Shown here in pieces: positions 110 to 19,651 of a stretch of 51,478 nucleotides of DNA. Each line of letters starts with the position of its first letter. Positions within the stretch are counted from its first letter, which is position 1. The position numbers and the translations under genes are program-made. The notes beneath the pieces were generated by a model. That model had not been told where the DNA came from. It saw only the letters and a program-made list of their open reading frames with translations, and did no database searches. The stretch comes from a bacterium (GTDB taxonomy: Bacteria; Zixibacteria; MSB-5A5; WJJR01): contig JAKAKI010000086.1 of assembly GCA_021813505.1 (NCBI GenBank), positions 1 through 51,478 of the forward strand, written 5' to 3'.

Positions 110-177
110 GTAGGGCGGGTGATTCACACCCGGACAGCTTCCCTAGCGGATAACGCCCGGTGAATCACCCGCCCTAC
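110..177. repeat. Inverted repeat (18-bp perfect arms) at the end of tonB
   Basis: Two perfect 18-bp arms, GTAGGGCGGGTGATTCAC at 110-127 and its reverse complement at 160-177, enclose a 32-bp spacer. The right arm overlaps the stop codon of the minus-strand tonB (174-176). The structure looks like a REP or MITE-type palindrome and could also act as a transcript-end hairpin, but no T-run follows it. I see no gene in bases 1-173. Confidence 0.75.
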
Positions 178-956
178 CGGTGCGACAGGCGAAACTCCAC
201 CTTGAACGCAATCCTCACCGCCACCGGGCGCCCATTTTGTATCGCCGGTCTGTACAGGTGTCTCAAGCTGAAATCGACGGCCGCCTGCTCGAAGCCGACA
301 TTGCTGCCGGAGGGTTTCTTGACGATCGCCTCACGAACTCTGCCCTCACGATCGACCAGCGCCTCAACAACAACGACACCCTCCGTACCGGTCAGCGCGG
401 CCATCTCGGGATATTCCAACTTCGTCCTATCGATCCGCACCGGCAGGATCTCAACGGGCACGAATTCCCCGGACTTGGGAAAATACTCTGCGTCGTTGTC
501 AACAGGGCCCGGGACTACATAAGCCTCGGGAGTTTCCCCGGTCGTGGGCGGGAGTGTTGGATTGATTGCAGCAAGCTCGTCCTTCGTGGGAAAATGGACT
601 TGCGCTGGGGCTTCCTCATCCGGGACCGGTTCAGGGATTCCGAACTCAGGCATGGCAACATCCGGGTTCGAAACCTGCGCATGCGGTATAACGTGTGTCA
701 TCTTCGGTATCGGCGCCAGGTCTTTCGGGCCGCTGAGGATTATGATGACCGGTTCATCCATCGCGGCGGGCGTCAAATGTCTGTACACTCCGACCCCGCC
801 AACAATCAAGAGGTGAACGGTCGCCGCCAGCAGGACACCAACGGCCATGTTGCGCTGATAACAGCGTTTGATCTCGAGGGCGCCATAGAGCACGTACCCT
901 GGTCCCGTTCCCGCCATAGGACTCGTCAGCGCCATTGATCCCAATGCCCTGCGCAT
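174..956 (-). CDS. tonB: TonB-family energy transducer (solo copy)
   Basis: A 260-aa TonB-like protein. TonB spans from the inner membrane to outer-membrane TonB-dependent receptors and passes on energy from ExbB/ExbD. Visible here are a cytoplasmic start, one membrane segment near residues 36-54 (MAVGVLLAATVHLLIVGGV), a Pro/Glu-rich periplasmic linker, and a C-terminal TonB domain (about 175-260) with the typical GTEGVVVVEALVDREGRV and YRPAIQNGRPVAVRIAFKVEF stretches. The ATG at 956 is preceded by AAGGAGG with a 6-nt spacer, which supports it. The protein is clearly paralogous to the TonB at 1139-1891. A terminator at 1075-1104 separates the two, so this copy probably has its own promoter in 957-1074. 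The stop codon lies inside an inverted repeat. Confidence 0.9.
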   Translation of the reverse strand: MRRALGSMALTSPMAGTGPGYVLYGALEIKRCYQRNMAVGVLLAATVHLLIVGGVGVYRHLTPAAMDEPVIIILSGPKDLAPIPKMTHVIPHAQVSNPDVAMPEFGIPEPVPDEEAPAQVHFPTKDELAAINPTLPPTTGETPEAYVVPGPVDNDAEYFPKSGEFVPVEILPVRIDRTKLEYPEMAALTGTEGVVVVEALVDREGRVREAIVKKPSGSNVGFEQAAVDFSLRHLYRPAIQNGRPVAVRIAFKVEFRLSHR

Positions 957-1074
957 GGACTGCCTCCTTGCTGTAATGATTCCGCCGGTCCGCTCACGCG
1001 TCCGGAAATCACGGCTCGTGTGTTATCCAAAAGGATTACGCCTGGCCGGGAGACTTATTCCATTACGCAGCAAG

Positions 1075-1104
1075 AAAAAGCCCCCCGCCTGTTATGGCGA
1101 GGGG
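1075..1104 (-). terminator. Rho-independent terminator of the exb/ton operon
   Basis: Read on the minus strand, a 9-bp stem (CCCCTCGCC pairing with GGCGGGGGG, one G-U) closes a 6-nt ATAACA loop and is followed at once by CTTTTTCTTG. It sits about 35 bases after the stop of the upstream tonB and before the start of the downstream tonB, so it should end the operon that begins near 6914. Confidence 0.85.
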
Positions 1105-1138
1105 CGGAAGACCTTTGCTCTGCGCTGGCGCGCCTGAG

Positions 1139-1891
1139 CTATTTGGTTTTGAATTCGACTTTGTAGGAAACCCAGACCGCGACCGGTCGGCCGTTTTGGA
1201 TGGCCGGTTTGTAGCGGTTCTTGAGCGCCGCTTCGAGGGCCGCTTCCTCGAACCCGACTTTGCTGCCGGAGGGCTTCAGAACACGTGCGTCGCGGACTTT
1301 GCCCTCTTTGTCGACGAGCGCCTGAATCCACACCACGCCGGTCGTCCCGGTCAGGGTGGCCAATTCCGGCGTTATTGGGTTTTCGTGGGAGATCTCCACG
1401 GGCTGTTCTTCAACAGCCACAAACTCACCGGCCTGTGGGAAATACTCCTCGTTGAGCGCACTGGGATCAACGACCACCGAATCACCGCGTCCCCCGGTCG
1501 ATGGCGCCACCACCGGCGCGGACAGTTCGGCCAATTCCGCACGCGTGGCGAAATGCACATCCTCCGGAGCTTCTTCGTCCGGCACGGGTGTCGGGATACC
1601 GATCGATGGCGGGGCAATATTCGGCTCGGCGACGTTGACCTGTGGTTTGGCCGCAGTCATCGAGGGTGGCGGAGCGATGTCCGAAAGCGCTTTGATACGC
1701 ACGATGCCGACCGCTTCGACATCATTGCGCGATTTGATGTACTGGTAGATCAGCATTCCGGCTACCAGGGTAATGTGGAGCAGAGCGGCCAGCCCGACTC
1801 CCATTGCCATATTGCGCTGGTACGAGCGCTTGAGCTCAAACGCTCCGTACCATCCCCCCGGCATTACCGCCGCAGATGGTTTTGCGCTCAT
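1139..1891 (-). CDS. tonB: TonB-family energy transducer (operon copy)
   Basis: A 250-aa TonB paralogue. It has a single membrane anchor (about residues 31-50), a Pro-rich periplasmic linker containing PVPDEEAPEDVHF (near-identical in the solo TonB), and a C-terminal TonB domain ending GRPVAVWVSYKVEFKTK. The domain carries the family pattern of TGTTGVVWIQALVDKEGKV followed by an ALKNRYKPAIQNG motif. The start codon overlaps the stop of the preceding exbD (ATGA at 1888-1891), which implies translational coupling and a role as partner of the ExbB/ExbD genes upstream. A strong terminator lies just downstream. Confidence 0.92.
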   Translation of the reverse strand: MSAKPSAAVMPGGWYGAFELKRSYQRNMAMGVGLAALLHITLVAGMLIYQYIKSRNDVEAVGIVRIKALSDIAPPPSMTAAKPQVNVAEPNIAPPSIGIPTPVPDEEAPEDVHFATRAELAELSAPVVAPSTGGRGDSVVVDPSALNEEYFPQAGEFVAVEEQPVEISHENPITPELATLTGTTGVVWIQALVDKEGKVRDARVLKPSGSKVGFEEAALEAALKNRYKPAIQNGRPVAVWVSYKVEFKTK

Positions 1892-2484
1892 GGCGTCGCC
1901 GTCCCTTCTTCCACCTCCGCTTCACCGGTTACCTTGGCAATCGTCTTGGTATCCAGTCGCGTCCAGGGCCCCAGAGAGAAGGTATAGGAGAACTCGGGGT
2001 CATCCTTGGGGACGGTACCCCTCTCCTTGCCTAGTTTCTGTGCCTCCTTGAGGCGGTATTCAACGATTTCAATTCGGTCGAGAACCTCGACCATCCGGGA
2101 ATACCGGGCGCCCTTGTTAATCTTCACAAGTGTGATCAACCCCGGAATCTCATGGACTTTGTCCTGCAAAAGCTTGGGGAGCGCGGGAAGTTCGACGGCT
2201 TGCGGATCGTCCTTTCCGACGTTCCAGAAGATGCGATTCTTGGCGTCAATCCGCAGAGTCAAGACTTTGGACTCGCCGGTCGGCTTCTCCGTTTGTGTGG
2301 GCGGCAGATTGATCTCCATCGCCTGGGGTTCGGAGAAGATGGTTGAGACCATGTAGAAGATCAGGAGCAGGAAGGCGATATCGACCATCGGGGTCATATC
2401 GATCCGAACTGCCACCCGCCTTTTGGGCCGCCGCAACCCCTTCTTTTTTTGTGGCTTATCGCCGCCGAGATCAACAGAACCCAT
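1888..2484 (-). CDS. exbD: ExbD/TolR-family proton-channel subunit (second copy)
   Basis: A 198-aa ExbD/TolR protein, the peptidoglycan-side partner of the ExbB proton channel. A basic N-terminus precedes one membrane helix with the conserved aspartate (RIDMTPMVDIAFLLLIFYM, about residues 29-47). Asp in MVD is the proton-carrying residue of the family. The rest is a periplasmic domain, longer than in the other copy, with a charged, Lys-rich C-terminal region. GAGGGAG stands upstream of the ATG. It is coupled to tonB downstream by ATGA. Two adjacent ExbD genes of different periplasmic sequence suggest a heteromeric ExbD pair, as known in Bacteroidetes and some Proteobacteria. Confidence 0.93.
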   Translation of the reverse strand: MGSVDLGGDKPQKKKGLRRPKRRVAVRIDMTPMVDIAFLLLIFYMVSTIFSEPQAMEINLPPTQTEKPTGESKVLTLRIDAKNRIFWNVGKDDPQAVELPALPKLLQDKVHEIPGLITLVKINKGARYSRMVEVLDRIEIVEYRLKEAQKLGKERGTVPKDDPEFSYTFSLGPWTRLDTKTIAKVTGEAEVEEGTATP

Positions 2485-2598
2485 TACTTAACTCCCTCAA
2501 AGAGGTGGCACCCTGGACCACGTTTGGCCAATCCAGGGACTCCAACTCCTCGCAGATCATGCCTGCACTCTGTTATACGCTTCCAAATCCGCATTCGA

Positions 2599-3111
2599 TC
2601 ACCCGCCGCCGACGGTCCTTGAGAGGGTGCGATCCAGATCGGTTACCACCTGGAAGCTCGTAAGATTTTGATCCTGCATTGCTTTCATGATCTTCTCGAC
2701 CACACCGAATGATGCGTCCTTATCCGCTTTCATGACCAGGAAGAGGTCCTTGATATTCTGCGAGATGGCTTTCAGCCGCATCTTCTGGATTTCGTTCCCG
2801 ACCCCCTCCGGTGTGGAGGTCAGGTATTCCCGCTCCGGCAGCTCAATCGAGTCCCCGATGGTTGGATCGAACTTCTTGACCTTGAGGATGTAGTCAAGGA
2901 AGACCGAATCCTGCTTCGTCACCGTGATCGTGATGAAGTTCTTCAGCGGCAACTGGCGTTGCGAGGTCGAGGTCGGCAGCACCACCTGCTTCTGTTCCGG
3001 CGGTTTGAACTGCGTCGTCGTCATGTAGAAGATCAACAGCAGGAACGCAATATCCACCATCGGGGTCATATCGATGCGGACAGCGATCCGTCTTTTACTC
3101 TTTTTGGTCAT
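2599..3111 (-). CDS. exbD: ExbD/TolR-family proton-channel subunit (first copy)
   Basis: A 170-aa ExbD/TolR protein. It starts MTKKSKRRIAVRIDMTP and has a single membrane segment with the conserved Asp (MVDIAFLLLIFYM, about residues 18-30), then a periplasmic alpha/beta domain that includes the usual VMKADKDASFGVVEKIMKAM segment. The start lies only 3 bases after the exbB stop. It is followed by the second exbD after a 114-base gap in which I see no gene. Confidence 0.93.
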   Translation of the reverse strand: MTKKSKRRIAVRIDMTPMVDIAFLLLIFYMTTTQFKPPEQKQVVLPTSTSQRQLPLKNFITITVTKQDSVFLDYILKVKKFDPTIGDSIELPEREYLTSTPEGVGNEIQKMRLKAISQNIKDLFLVMKADKDASFGVVEKIMKAMQDQNLTSFQVVTDLDRTLSRTVGGG

Positions 3112-3114
3112 GAC

Positions 3115-3855
3115 TTAGGCACCAGCCGTGCGCGCTTCACGCGACTTGAGAAGTTGGACAACCTCATACGATGCTTCGTCAATCGTGTAATTGAAACTGT
3201 CGACCTTGTTCACGAAGAAGTTGTACGCCACGATGCCGATGATGGCATCCAGAAGCCCGCCGGCCGTATTGACCAGCGCCTCGGAAATACCGGTGGCGAG
3301 GGAGGTCGCATCAATGACACCGCCCGCGGCGTGACCGGTGGCCTTAAACGCACGAATCATGCCGATCGTGGTTCCGAGCAGCCCGATCATGGTGGCGATG
3401 GAGGCGATGGTCGAGAGGGCGATCAGATTGCGCTCGAGAAGCGGAACTTCCAGAGAATTGGCTTCTTCGATCGCACGCTGTGTCTCTTCGACTCGCTTGT
3501 CTGTATTTAATGAGTGGTCGTCCTTCACCTGCGAGTACCGTTCGATACCGGCGCGCAAGACGTTGGCGCAGGATCCGCGCTGCTTGTCGCAAGCGGCCAC
3601 AGCGCCCTTGTAATCACCTTTGTGGAGGGCATCGACGACATGCTTAAAGAACGCCTGCACCGAACTGGCGCCGCGCGCCTTCCGGAGCGTGAACAACCGC
3701 TCGAGAATGAAGGCCACCAGCATCACCGACAACGCAATCAGGAGGGCAACCAGGTACCCGCCCTTTTGAAGATAGTCCGGCAGTTGCGTCCAGATGATGA
3801 AGCCGGTAGCCAGCGAGACCACCAGCACGACCACGACGAACAAACTCTGTTTCAC
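3115..3855 (-). CDS. exbB: MotA/TolQ/ExbB proton-channel family protein
   Basis: A 246-aa ExbB/TolQ homologue, the inner-membrane proton channel that energises TonB. Membrane segments lie near residues 7-25 and 34-52. A cytoplasmic loop follows (about 55-150), and then the two conserved helices, first LLERNLIALSTIASIATMIG leading into LLGTTIGMIRAF, then EALVNTAGGLLDAIIGIVAYNFFV. The start is GTG (3853-3855), chosen because AGGAGG stands 6 bases upstream. The C-terminal tail after the last helix is cytoplasmic and charged. The following exbD starts 3 bases after the stop. The paired ExbD and TonB genes downstream make an ExbB role more likely than MotA or TolQ. Confidence 0.93.
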   Translation of the reverse strand: MKQSLFVVVVLVVSLATGFIIWTQLPDYLQKGGYLVALLIALSVMLVAFILERLFTLRKARGASSVQAFFKHVVDALHKGDYKGAVAACDKQRGSCANVLRAGIERYSQVKDDHSLNTDKRVEETQRAIEEANSLEVPLLERNLIALSTIASIATMIGLLGTTIGMIRAFKATGHAAGGVIDATSLATGISEALVNTAGGLLDAIIGIVAYNFFVNKVDSFNYTIDEASYEVVQLLKSREARTAGA

Positions 3856-9396: not shown

Positions 9397-10158
9397 TTAT
9401 GTGCGTTTCGCTTCGCGCTGAAGATGGGCCGTCCAATCATCTTCGATTTCCTTCAATGTGCCACCGTAAATCTTCTCGAGAGAAGACGGCAAATCCAGAA
9501 CACTCTTCCAGAGCATTTTGAACCGATCCACACCTTGCGTCTGGATCAAATAGGCGACAAACGAAGCACTCTCGAGCCGATAGGCATCGCGATCTGTTAC
9601 CGTTGAGGGATTCACCAACGCGGACAGCGGGATCCACCGGCCACCGTTTTTCAAGTTGGCCGCGTCACCATGGATGTTATCACTCTCGCCGTCGAACGCC
9701 TCACGCAGTCCATCCTTGATCATCTCAAACGATGGCGCCTCAGGATCAATCGACGTAAAGGCCGCCACGGCGATTGCGCCCCCGACCGGCGACCCGATGC
9801 GCGTGTAAATCCGGTAACCCTCCACGTAGACGGCGGGGTGGCCAATCGCTGCTTCACAATCCTGATTGGTGATAAACCGGTAGATCGAAATCTTCTCCTT
9901 CACATCCAGATTGAGCAGCTTCGACAAATTCGCGTATGCTTCTTCACACGCTTGGGCCAGAACCCTCAACTGGGCCACTCGGGGAGATTGCGGCGGATCG
10001 AATAGGCGGAAGTGCGCCGTCGAATCGGACACCCATCCCACCGCGAACGTCGCGGGATCGATCGTCTTCTGCCGCTTGCCACAGGCAATCAACGCGGGGA
10101 TTGCAGATGCGATTGCAAGATAGCGCCAGTAGCGCTGGATAATGTGCTGTCTGGACAT
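9397..10158 (-). CDS. Lipoprotein resembling a gluzincin peptidase without the HExxH motif
   Basis: A 253-aa protein with a lipoprotein signal (LAIASAIPALIA then Cys at about residue 26). The second half follows the pattern of secreted gluzincin (peptidase MA-like) domains: a candidate EGLA-like segment IKDGLREAFDG, then GGRWIPLSALVN, then LESASFVAYLIQTQGVDRFK, then EKIYGGTLKEIEDDWTAHL. The zinc-binding HExxH expected before it is not present, so it is probably not an active metalloprotease. The ATG at 10158 is chosen from GAGGAG 6 bases upstream; the longer ORF to 10713 would overlap the neighbouring gene. The similarity is judged by eye. Confidence 0.75.
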   Translation of the reverse strand: MSRQHIIQRYWRYLAIASAIPALIACGKRQKTIDPATFAVGWVSDSTAHFRLFDPPQSPRVAQLRVLAQACEEAYANLSKLLNLDVKEKISIYRFITNQDCEAAIGHPAVYVEGYRIYTRIGSPVGGAIAVAAFTSIDPEAPSFEMIKDGLREAFDGESDNIHGDAANLKNGGRWIPLSALVNPSTVTDRDAYRLESASFVAYLIQTQGVDRFKMLWKSVLDLPSSLEKIYGGTLKEIEDDWTAHLQREAKRT

Positions 10159-10250
10159 GAACACGTTCTCCTCGTCTGAGGCGATTATACAATCCGGCCG
10201 CGCACGGAGCCAACGCTTTCTGGAGAGGATCGAAGTCCGGCGGGAAAAGC

Positions 10251-10868
10251 TCAGCGGGCAACTCCCAGCCAATCGACTAACAGGAATTGTACCCGCCCGA
10301 TCAACAATGACACACGCGCCATGACGGTATAGCCAAAGTGGGCGCCGAAGGCCACCATGATAAATCCTATACCCACAGACGCGATCCAGCCGAGTGTCCC
10401 GGTGTGGGGTTTGGAAAAGTAGAAATAGATCAGTGTCGTCAGGACCCCGACGATGATCAGGATATTCCGCAGGGAATCGAGCGGCAGCAGGGTCCGCCCG
10501 ACCTGGGGAAGAACCATGCCATGCAGTTGCTGGATGAACATGATCCCGGCCGTACTCCCGATCACGAATGCAAGCGGCAGCCGTGTGGTCCAGCCGATTC
10601 TGGGGAAAAATCGCGCGAACATCAACAGTCCCAGCACCCCGGGAACCAGGACGCTCCATTGGCCATCCTGGGTGAGCGGCATCCAGACCTGCTGCCTGAT
10701 CACCGACTGCCAAATGAGACCGAAGTAGTATCCGGCGGACAGCCCGGCGAAGACATGCTCCGCGAGCTTGAACATCGGGTTGTCTTTATAGAGGAATGAG
10801 AAGATCGCCAGCGTGAAGAACGCCGTCGGCAGCAGCAGGAAGAACGGATGGGAGTACCACTCAGGCAT
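10251..10868 (-). CDS. Uncharacterised six-span membrane protein of the DUF6754 module
   Basis: A 205-aa integral membrane protein with about six hydrophobic segments, near residues 7-26, 40-60, 73-88, 97-117, 135-153 and 160-185. It starts MPEWYSHPFFLLLPTAFF and carries the notable sequence YKDNPMFKLAEHVFAGLSAG just after the first helix. It begins 6 bases after the stop of the 291-aa gene, so it is surely in the same operon. I recall similar YKDNP...AEH...G.SAG proteins only as hypothetical proteins in other uncultured bacteria. No catalytic motif is visible. Confidence 0.8.
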   Translation of the reverse strand: MPEWYSHPFFLLLPTAFFTLAIFSFLYKDNPMFKLAEHVFAGLSAGYYFGLIWQSVIRQQVWMPLTQDGQWSVLVPGVLGLLMFARFFPRIGWTTRLPLAFVIGSTAGIMFIQQLHGMVLPQVGRTLLPLDSLRNILIIVGVLTTLIYFYFSKPHTGTLGWIASVGIGFIMVAFGAHFGYTVMARVSLLIGRVQFLLVDWLGVAR

Positions 10869-10874
10869 GGCCGG

Positions 10875-11750
10875 TCAGTTCTGACCTTTCTGGGACTGCT
10901 CGCGGCGCAGCATAAAGAATCCGAAGTTCCCGAGGATGATGAATGCGATGATGAGGAAATGGATCAGCGACTGCGCGTCCATCCCCCGGCTGGCTTTGTC
11001 GGAGTGTTCAATCAGTTGTTCGTACTCCGCGGCCCCCTTCATACCACCTAACAATCCGAGCAATTGGTGCGACTGGATATACGAGAGCATCTTCGGAGCC
11101 ATGATGGCCGTCACACCCGCGACCATCGGCAATCCGTAGCGAGCGTTTACCAGAGCCACCCAGTAGTCGGTCATGGCGTTGTCCGAAACGATCAGCACGA
11201 ATTTCACGGAATCGTAGTTGGGCACCTGACGCATGAGCGGAATCGAGTCGAGACGCGTGCCGCGATGGTCGGTCGGAAAGATATCAGCGATCTTGGATCC
11301 CATCCCCAGCAACACGGCCGAGTAGTTCGCTTTGTAGCCCAAATTGACATAATCCACGCCATACGTTTTGTGGAACTCGGCTCCGATAGAGTCGAGAAGC
11401 CGGTCGGCGATCGACGGGCCACCCATGCCTACATTAGAGAGGCCAACGACACGCAGGTTTTTCCGGAAGCAGTGTCGCAGTCCCGCCACCGCCATCGGCT
11501 CAGTCTCCGGCAGTGTCGATGGCCAGAAGTCGAATGGGAAAAGCACCACCGAACCTGAAGGCAGGGAATCGACCGCGTTAAAGAATGCCCTCGATTCCGG
11601 CGTAACCGGCGTCGGCAAGTGCAGGGGCCAGAGAATGGGAATGATCACGGAGGCGAAAATCAGCGTGTACAGAATTCTTCTGTCCACACCTTGAAGCCGT
11701 TCCCAGAACGACTTTCCGGATATACCCATCGCCGTCCCGTTCATCGTCAT
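10875..11750 (-). CDS. Uncharacterised membrane-tethered alpha/beta protein of the DUF6754 module
   Basis: A 291-aa protein with an N-terminal membrane segment (about 25-42, ILYTLIFASVIIPILWPL), a soluble domain of about 205 residues, and a C-terminal membrane segment (about 261-281, LIHFLIIAFIILGNFGFFML). The soluble part looks like a Rossmann-type alpha/beta fold with repeated strand-turn units (SGSVVLFPFDFWP, KNLRVVGLSNVGMGGP, SVKFVLIVSDNAMTDYW). It has a Gly-rich LLGLLGGMKGAAEYEQLI segment before the last helix. The start overlaps the preceding stop by ATGA. The layout of helix, alpha/beta domain, helix is the same as in the 339-aa neighbour. Function unknown. Confidence 0.82.
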   Translation of the reverse strand: MTMNGTAMGISGKSFWERLQGVDRRILYTLIFASVIIPILWPLHLPTPVTPESRAFFNAVDSLPSGSVVLFPFDFWPSTLPETEPMAVAGLRHCFRKNLRVVGLSNVGMGGPSIADRLLDSIGAEFHKTYGVDYVNLGYKANYSAVLLGMGSKIADIFPTDHRGTRLDSIPLMRQVPNYDSVKFVLIVSDNAMTDYWVALVNARYGLPMVAGVTAIMAPKMLSYIQSHQLLGLLGGMKGAAEYEQLIEHSDKASRGMDAQSLIHFLIIAFIILGNFGFFMLRREQSQKGQN

Positions 11751-12367
11751 CCGCGCCCCAGGTACGTGCGTTCAATGCCAAGGATAATGCGCAACGACAT
11801 CGATGCCGCGCCCAGGGCGGCACCGATTAAGATGCCTCTCTGGACCGCCATCGAGGGGACGGTCATGATCCAGTCGGCCCATGACGGCAGACCGTGATAG
11901 ATGTACTGGCCCATTGGGATGCGGCCCAGCATGACCAGCACCGCGGCGACCAGCAGAATCGCCGACGACGCTGAGCGCGCCCGGAAGGCTCGGTACGCGG
12001 CCGACGCAATAAAGAAGGCGAGAACGGAGAACATCGTCGACATCATCGGCGCCTGGATGCGCTGGAACAGCGTGTCGAAGAGCGTCCCGCTTCCGATCCC
12101 GTAGAACACACCCGAACCACCCATGACGACGAAGCAAATCAACAGACACAGCGAGTAGAACCGATCCTCATGCCTGGTGGCGACTTTCTTCCAGTGCACC
12201 CGGGCGATTGACACGGCTCCAAGAAGGAGCGAGAACCCGCCGACGATCGTTTGCCAGGTTAACGCCCGATCGGAAACCGCATCGACAACAGTGCCTCTCC
12301 CGAAGAACGCCAGGATCATCAGCGCGCCGGAGATGAAAGCGACGAGCACCGGAAGGCGGGACTTCAT
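11747..12367 (-). CDS. Uncharacterised multi-span membrane protein of the DUF6754 module
   Basis: A 206-aa integral membrane protein with about six hydrophobic segments (for example SRLPVLVAFISGALMILAFF, FYSLCLLICFVVMGGSGVF, STMFSVLAFFIASAAYRAF, AILLVAAVLVMLGRIPMG). I start it at the ATG at 12367. The 12-codon longer form would need a TTG at 12403 and overlap the upstream gene. The stop overlaps the next start by ATGA. No known domain was recognised. Order and coupling indicate one complex with its three neighbours. Confidence 0.8.
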   Translation of the reverse strand: MKSRLPVLVAFISGALMILAFFGRGTVVDAVSDRALTWQTIVGGFSLLLGAVSIARVHWKKVATRHEDRFYSLCLLICFVVMGGSGVFYGIGSGTLFDTLFQRIQAPMMSTMFSVLAFFIASAAYRAFRARSASSAILLVAAVLVMLGRIPMGQYIYHGLPSWADWIMTVPSMAVQRGILIGAALGAASMSLRIILGIERTYLGRG

Positions 12368-12389
12368 GAAGTGGATTCCAGGGGAGTGG

Positions 12390-13409
12390 TCACTTGGCCT
12401 CAAATATCGCGGTCAGCCATTCCGGATTTTGCCCGAAGGTGATGGCGAGCACACCGGCGAGGACGATGACGGTAATGACGATCTTCATCAAGTCCTGTCC
12501 TTTCAGCGATCCCAGAATCTTCGGGTCGCCGGACAGATAGGCGCTGGCGGCGTAAAGTTCCTCGCCGATCAACACGTAGTCGCAAGCCGCGATGAAAAAC
12601 GGCAGTTGGTCGGGTGCGGCCGTTCCCGCAATCTGAATCGCCCCAGTCGACTGGCCAACCTCGGCGATCAGCAGGGATTCTGCGGTGAAAAGCCCCATGT
12701 AGATCGCCGCCCCGGGCCGTTCACGCATCATGATCCCGCCGACACGCGCCGAGTAGGAAAAGGACTCGCCGGCGACATACTGAACAGTTTCCGGGTCCTG
12801 ATGCTCGACGCCTTCGTCGAGGTATGCCTCGCGCACTGTCTCTTGCGCCGCCGCCATCGGTAAGGGATACAGCACCGGCACGCGGAGCGGCGTGTTGTAC
12901 CGCGCGGTCACGCGGGCGACTCTTCCGAGAATCGAAAGCCCGGCGATCGTTTGAATCTCGTCGAGGTCTCCCGTTCCAGGGATATAGACGACCGGACGGC
13001 CCATCTCAGTCGCCCGGCCAACAGCCTCATCGACGGCCGAGAGTCCGGGAATCGGCCGGACATACATTTTCGCACCCCGGCGGGCCTGCGCGATGTACCA
13101 CAGCACGGCAGCGCCGAACACGACCGACAAGACGAGTGCGTTGATTCGCTCCATGCGAAAGACACCCGCAAGCTGGCCGTCGCCGGTTGAGACACTTGGG
13201 AGAATCACTTGCACTGTGAGAACGATAGTGATGAGTCCGGTGAACGCTTGCTCCGCAGCAGAAAGACGTCTGCCGCATTCTCGAATCGCCTTCACGCCCC
13301 CGACGTCATTCCCGCGAAAGCGGGAATCCAGCGCTGCCCGGACACGCTGGATTCCCGCATCCGCGGGAATGACGTCGGGGCGACTCTTCGGGTGCGTGAC
13401 GATGTTCAT
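12390..13409 (-). CDS. DUF6754-like membrane protein with a repeat-encoded N-terminus
   Basis: A 339-aa protein. Membrane segments lie near residues 54-72 (AFTGLITIVLTVQVILPS), 90-106 (ALVLSVVFGAAVLWYIA) and 312-330 (IVITVIVLAGVLAITFG). The domain between begins YVRPIPGLSAVDEAVGRATE then MGRPVVYIPGTGDLDEIQTI. To my memory this matches the uncharacterised DUF6754 family; a profile search would settle it. The ATG at 13409 overlaps the pgi/pmi stop (ATGA), which supports this early start. If so, residues 11-37 (VIPADAGIQ and LDSRFRGND) are read from a REP-type palindrome. A later start, such as the Met of MERINAL at about 13154, is possible. Confidence 0.82.
   Translation of the reverse strand: MNIVTHPKSRPDVIPADAGIQRVRAALDSRFRGNDVGGVKAIRECGRRLSAAEQAFTGLITIVLTVQVILPSVSTGDGQLAGVFRMERINALVLSVVFGAAVLWYIAQARRGAKMYVRPIPGLSAVDEAVGRATEMGRPVVYIPGTGDLDEIQTIAGLSILGRVARVTARYNTPLRVPVLYPLPMAAAQETVREAYLDEGVEHQDPETVQYVAGESFSYSARVGGIMMRERPGAAIYMGLFTAESLLIAEVGQSTGAIQIAGTAAPDQLPFFIAACDYVLIGEELYAASAYLSGDPKILGSLKGQDLMKIVITVIVLAGVLAITFGQNPEWLTAIFEAK
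13297..13380. repeat. REP-type palindromic element inside a coding sequence
   Basis: A perfect 19-bp terminal inverted repeat (CCCCGACGTCATTCCCGCG at the left, its complement at 13362-13380) holds nested inner palindromes (GCGGGAATCCAGCG and CGCTGGATTCCCGC). The sequence belongs to the widespread CATTCCCGC...GCGGGAATCC family, similar to the Neisseria dRS3 core. In frame it encodes the well-known VIPA.AGIQ...LDSRFRGND peptide. It lies within the first 38 codons of the 339-aa gene. Confidence 0.85.

Positions 13410-17831: not shown

Positions 17832-19651
<1,820 letters not shown>

Follow-up and report, generated by a model that had tools for sequence, protein, structure and literature searches.

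Gene organization of the locus

The window (the whole stretch of DNA analyzed here, 51,478 nucleotides from a Zixibacteria MAG) contains four adjacent open reading frames (ORFs) on the minus strand at positions 10251–13409, here called genes A, B, C, and D (Table 1). The initial annotation had described them as a closely spaced membrane module, and its coordinates, spacing, and ATGA overlap were borne out: a 22-base gap lies between A and B, the B and C frames share 4 bases (ATGA), and C and D are separated by 6 bases, in frame. The start of gene B was placed at the ATG at 12367 by family alignment, which gives 206 aa and the 22-base gap to gene A.

Table 1. Features of the four-gene locus in the window.
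Feature	Position	Strand	Description
Gene A, DUF6754 protein	12390..13295	-	Longest ORF extends to 13409; PF20539 match; probable start placed from the repeat and the alignment with L016; predicted layout: signal-like helix, transmembrane (TM) helix, cytosolic Rossmann-like domain, TM helix
Gene B	11747..12367	-	206 aa; six predicted TM segments; N-terminus and C-terminus inside by charge bias; without known family
Gene C	10875..11750	-	291 aa; predicted TM helix, periplasmic Rossmann-like domain, TM helix; without known family
Gene D	10251..10868	-	205 aa; six predicted TM segments; without known family
Dispersed inverted repeat GTCATTCCCGC...GCGGGAATGAC	13298..13380	.	Dozens of further matches in the genome; outside the A protein

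Gene A had been listed as a protein of 339 aa. The ORF does extend that far, but the protein probably starts at the GTG at 13295 (301 aa), because the 5' end of the ORF is the dispersed inverted repeat, the alignment with relative L016 favors the shorter form, and a positively charged signal-like helix lies just after the GTG. The first ~38 codons of the ORF fall within the repeat, which is read through in frame. The same repeat region is carried by L016, which is 97% identical.

Gene A encodes a full-length DUF6754 member (PF20539, E 6e-105; score 350 bits, cut-off 27; profile positions 5–250 of 257), which confirmed the likeness to this family that had been noted for the ORF. B, C, and D were scanned against Pfam and NCBIfam, both singly and with 39–46 family members, and none exceeded a curated cut-off, in keeping with the earlier statement that the rest of the module has no recognized function. 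The C-terminal tail GIERTYLG is conserved in B, and the motif FLYKDNPFYKFAEH is conserved in D. Other identities were considered and dropped. The match of B to Mrp antiporter subunit G in NCBIfam reached 21 bits over ~72 residues against a cut-off of 122, and Pfam scores for OST3/OST6 and 8xMP were under cut-off. A plasmid-borne element was rejected, as gene A had no match among 72,556 plasmids. The ORF at 9397–10713 on the minus strand overlaps D and contains, directly after D, a probable lipoprotein that matches Peptidase_MA weakly (E 0.09).

Recurrence and co-inheritance of the cassette

The source MAG (3.9 Mb in 95 contigs) encodes five DUF6754 proteins, each followed by B, C, and D. These five complete cassettes are distributed over contig C36 (three), contig C51 (one), and the window (one). 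A profile search of genome contigs with gene C found at least 525 relatives, which came from Zixibacteria, Eisenbacteria, WOR-3, Latescibacterota, Coatesbacteria, Fermentibacteria, TA06, and one MAG labeled Deltaproteobacteria. Among the cassettes in the loci examined, 76 of 95 had complete ABCD in the same order, and most of the rest were partial sets at locus ends. With five complete cassettes here and many more elsewhere, in a fixed order, the recurrence is far beyond chance. DUF6754 was present in all 132 genomes of the phylum, mostly in 3–6 copies, and in none of 14 control genomes.

For 90 complete cassettes, we compared the pairwise distance matrices of the four proteins. The Mantel r was 0.82–0.89, where 300 permutations reached at most 0.13; these correlations partly mirror species relationships, but several paralogous cassettes per genome were among those compared. 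Correlations that embrace paralogous cassettes indicate that, as judged from sequence distances, ABCD is inherited and duplicated as one unit. The initial annotation had looked to joint recurrence for support and had named singly scattered homologs or hits to separate known transporters as contrary evidence; the four genes do recur together, and neither kind of contrary evidence was found.

The clearest breaks of the ABCD spacing were insertions between B and C. The inserted genes encode a Ser/Thr-kinase-like protein (L022), a LiaF-like protein (L018), and a STAS-domain protein (L034).

Predicted topology and folds

Family-average hydropathy gave six TM segments for B and six for D, the two proteins that had been called helix-rich with about six spans, and two TM segments flanking the domain in each of A and C. 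Family-wide charge bias placed the A domain inside, the C domain outside (with strongly positive C tails), and both ends of B inside, and it gave no clear orientation for D. Judged by charge bias, the A and C domains would thus lie on opposite faces of the membrane.

We modeled the A-B pair (from orthologue L033) and the C-D pair (from the window) with AlphaFold2, each read through the intervening stop codon as one chain. In both models the domains of A and C were predicted with high confidence as alpha/beta folds with six helix-strand repeats and a last helix, followed by a TM helix, and the pLDDT of the A domain (L033 model) was mostly >90. The same predicted order of elements in both agrees with the shared plan that had been proposed for A and C. 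The C-D model had a pTM of 0.83, which implies contact between C and D because independent halves would give ~0.6 by our own estimate, with an artificial linker. The A-B model (pTM 0.63) implies no A-B contact. The models thus suggest an interface for C-D and none for A-B, and a physical complex of A–D is only hinted at.

The similar segment before the last helix, which had been pointed out in A and C, was recovered by comparison of the deeper profiles, but the match was weak (probability 13.6%) and confined to this segment, and its score of 29.6 was matched by 2 of 40 block shuffles. Sequence homology of A and C in the pre-TM segment is therefore no more than hinted at; a five-row profile comparison of A with C found nothing, and profile comparison of B with D found no homology. 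A fold search of the PDB with Foldseek at a threshold of E 0.001 gave best matches of E 0.024 (A-B) and 0.0088 (C-D) with low TM-scores, all to generic Rossmann or membrane-helix folds, and A–D profiles had no significant match among PDB sequences. Both A and C contain dense invariant polar residues that resemble ligand sites. In some A paralogs an FN3 domain precedes the rest of the protein (L018, E 2.5e-7); A of the window has none.

A MutL-like ATPase and the adaptor E

Outside Zixibacteria, ABCD is preceded by a protein of ~375 aa, here called E, and a MutL-family protein. Eisenbacteria have the order MutL-E-ABCD, and both Coatesbacteria and Latescibacterota have E-ABCD. Zixibacteria loci selected for MutL and DUF6754 on one contig were arranged as MutL-E-(ABCD)x2-3, either co-directional or divergent. 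MutL was found in 93 and E in 92 of the 98 genomes of the class, mostly as single copies. In the source genome (97% complete), MutL lies at the left end of contig C71 and E is missing, the only such case among the high-quality genomes. This absence probably reflects a contig break, because MutL and E are adjacent in G130, a genome of the same genus.

We then inspected 20 E loci sampled at even steps down the E match list. MutL adjoined E in 16 of them and ABCD lay beside both in 5, with several of the other loci lying on short contigs; a Tol-Pal operon was located downstream of E in 9. Assuming a single-copy locus, few cassette loci, a 3-Mb genome, and ~5 kb on each side, the chance of adjacency is ~1% per genome. 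Both frequencies, 5/20 for ABCD and 9/20 for Tol-Pal, are far above this expectation, though the genomes share ancestry. Several genomes have divergent MutL-E fusion ORFs of 771–989 aa (L164–L172), with no ABCD beside them; one example is the ORF that starts from 7967 on the minus strand of L172.

The MutL-like protein matches the full PF13941 domain (E ~1e-126) and contains the ASKHA-like phosphate motifs DCGSTTTKA and DIGGATTD. From family and motifs, we infer that this branch of MutL would hydrolyze ATP. E had no family of its own; matches to barrel-sandwich families (RnfC_N best, 3.6e-7) and weak ones to KOW were obtained with some of its members. In many Zixibacteria, a protein of ~260–290 aa is encoded between MutL and E, with an N-terminal signal, a 'YPDDW' domain, and mostly a C-terminal TM helix (for example, L184:8109-8927 and L142:1254-2033); it had no Pfam match. 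A role in anti-phage defense was rejected, as a PADLOC scan of A–D, E, and MutL gave no match.

Gene neighborhood

By Pfam, the Tol-Pal operon next to E comprises MotA_ExbB, ExbD, TonB_2, PD40, OmpA, and TPR proteins. L194 combines two ABCD cassettes, MutL, a short protein with a membrane anchor, E, and Tol-Pal in a single locus. FtsE, FtsX, and an M23 peptidase come after E in two WOR-3 genomes.

The cassette of the window belongs to a gene order that is conserved in Zixibacteria: dprA, HPr, PtsI, SIS isomerase, ABCD, (lipoprotein), NDP-sugar nucleotidyltransferase, MetK, and AHCY. The window differs from this order in having other genes after D. It also contains an ExbB-ExbD-ExbD-TonB-TonB cluster, as assigned by Pfam, which shares the strand of the cassette and lies ~6 kb downstream of it (174–3855, minus), and relatives L016 and L017 have an ExbB-like gene at a similar distance from the cassette. 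A CdaA-type diadenylate cyclase (PF02457, PF19293) is encoded upstream at 18890–19651 on the minus strand, in the same house-keeping neighborhood.

A candidate envelope machine and its alternatives

The interpretation starts from observed features, namely gene content, fixed order, co-inheritance, predicted folds, charge bias, adjacency and fusion of MutL and E, and the Tol-Pal and FtsEX neighborhood. We give an even chance to the reading that ABCD forms the membrane portion of an envelope machine, undescribed and ATP-dependent, that is worked by MutL-E alongside Tol-Pal. B and D, with six TM segments each, would form the membrane core; the Rossmann-like domain of A would face the cytosol, and its similarly built counterpart in C would face the periplasm. 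The soluble MutL/GlmL-like ASKHA ATPase and the barrel-sandwich adaptor E would act on the cytosolic face, most likely via A. The nucleotide cycle of MutL might then be relayed through the membrane to C, as well as to the FN3 domain of some A paralogs. One MutL-E pair could serve several cassettes, among them solitary copies like that of the window, and the task would be envelope maintenance or constriction alongside Tol-Pal. In this scheme we infer a single complex, ATP hydrolysis by MutL on behalf of ABCD, contact between E and A, and the process served. Three observations speak against it: the pTM of the A-B model is only 0.63; ABCD is beside MutL-E in only 5 of the 20 E loci, with the cassette of the window being solitary; and Tol-Pal adjoins MutL-E but adjoins ABCD only in some genomes, and neighborhood does not equal function.

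An alternative is that ABCD moves an envelope glycan or lipid as a transporter or flippase, with sugar nucleotides or carrier lipids bound by its Rossmann-like domains, and that MutL-E is a separate house-keeping pair. Many window-type cassettes of Zixibacteria are indeed preceded by an SIS protein of the phosphoglucose isomerase type and followed by an NDP-sugar nucleotidyltransferase, similar transferases occur upstream in a few other loci (Eisenbacteria included), and the ligand-site-like polar residues of A and C would suit such a role. GT-B enzymes are among the weak fold matches of both domains; however, these matches are generic Rossmann at E >0.008, and we recognized none of the catalytic motifs of known glycosyltransferases or flippases. 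Neighbors differ at other cassettes, and the MutL-E-ABCD clusters across phyla would be left unexplained, so we regard a transporter as unlikely. Slightly less likely still is an envelope sensor or signaling complex, in which periplasmic C (and the FN3 domain of A) would sense and cytosolic A would report. Conserved polar residues on both sides of the membrane are consistent with this idea, as is the Ser/Thr-kinase-like, STAS, or LiaF-like protein between B and C in a few loci, but no kinase, cyclase, or receiver domain is conserved alongside the cassette, and an ATPase partner with five cassettes per genome suits a machine at least equally.

The identity of the ATPase was also weighed. Glutamate mutase is the classical client of MutL, and membership in PF13941, the family of GlmL/MutL, would allow the protein to be an ordinary accessory ATPase of that enzyme, with the ABCD neighborhood being incidental. 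However, it fell short of the GlmL cut-offs (NF040745 equivalog, 230 vs 475 bits; subfamily, 179 vs 204), glutamate mutase E (PF06368) exceeded its cut-off in 5 of the 98 genomes compared with 93 for MutL, and MutL is linked, even fused, to E. This role is very improbable, and on these sequence criteria we rejected it.

The initial annotation had suggested an undescribed envelope machine or sensor. The machine fits the MutL-like ATPase, E, and the Tol-Pal and FtsEX neighbors, whereas the sensor found no specific support. Since ABCD is kept in every searched genome of the phylum, usually in multiple copies, and is common to neighboring candidate phyla, it is likely a core element in building or holding the envelope of these bacteria. 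Present annotation does not see this gene set: apart from A, none of the membrane proteins belongs to a family, and neither does the adaptor. The links to Tol-Pal, FtsEX, and a repurposed MutL-like ATPase lead to concrete testable predictions and give DUF6754 its first functional setting.

Comparison with known systems

Our literature search, whose scope excluded many subscription papers and preprints, found no paper mentioning DUF6754, PF20539, PF13941, or 'GlmL family', and within that scope no described system made up of these components. DUF6754 (PF20539), to which gene A belongs over its full length, is a family without assigned function, and B, C, and D, which constantly accompany it, belong to no family. 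More tentatively than the machine itself, we propose a new class of ATP-powered trans-envelope machine, in which a MutL-like ASKHA ATPase and an adaptor would drive several parallel four-protein inner-membrane complexes that have related Rossmann-like folds on both faces, are coupled to Tol-Pal, and are near-universal in Zixibacteria and related candidate phyla.

The partner ATPase shares the full PF13941 domain and the ASKHA-like phosphate motifs with the GlmL/MutL ATPases (PF13941, NF040745, TIGR01319). It differs from them in scoring under the GlmL equivalog and subfamily cut-offs, in having >100 extra C-terminal residues, and in being linked to E and ABCD with no link to a B12 mutase. Tol-Pal and ExbBD-TonB are, like the proposed machine, envelope systems energized at the inner membrane, and Tol-Pal often neighbors MutL-E; unlike their components, A–D had no Pfam match to TolQ/R/A/B, Pal, ExbB/D, or TonB, and the ATPase partner has no counterpart there. 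FtsA, PilM, and GspL belong to envelope machines that contain ASKHA proteins. No shared membrane components were seen with these, and the likeness would lie in the pairing of an actin/Hsp70-fold protein with an inner-membrane assembly.
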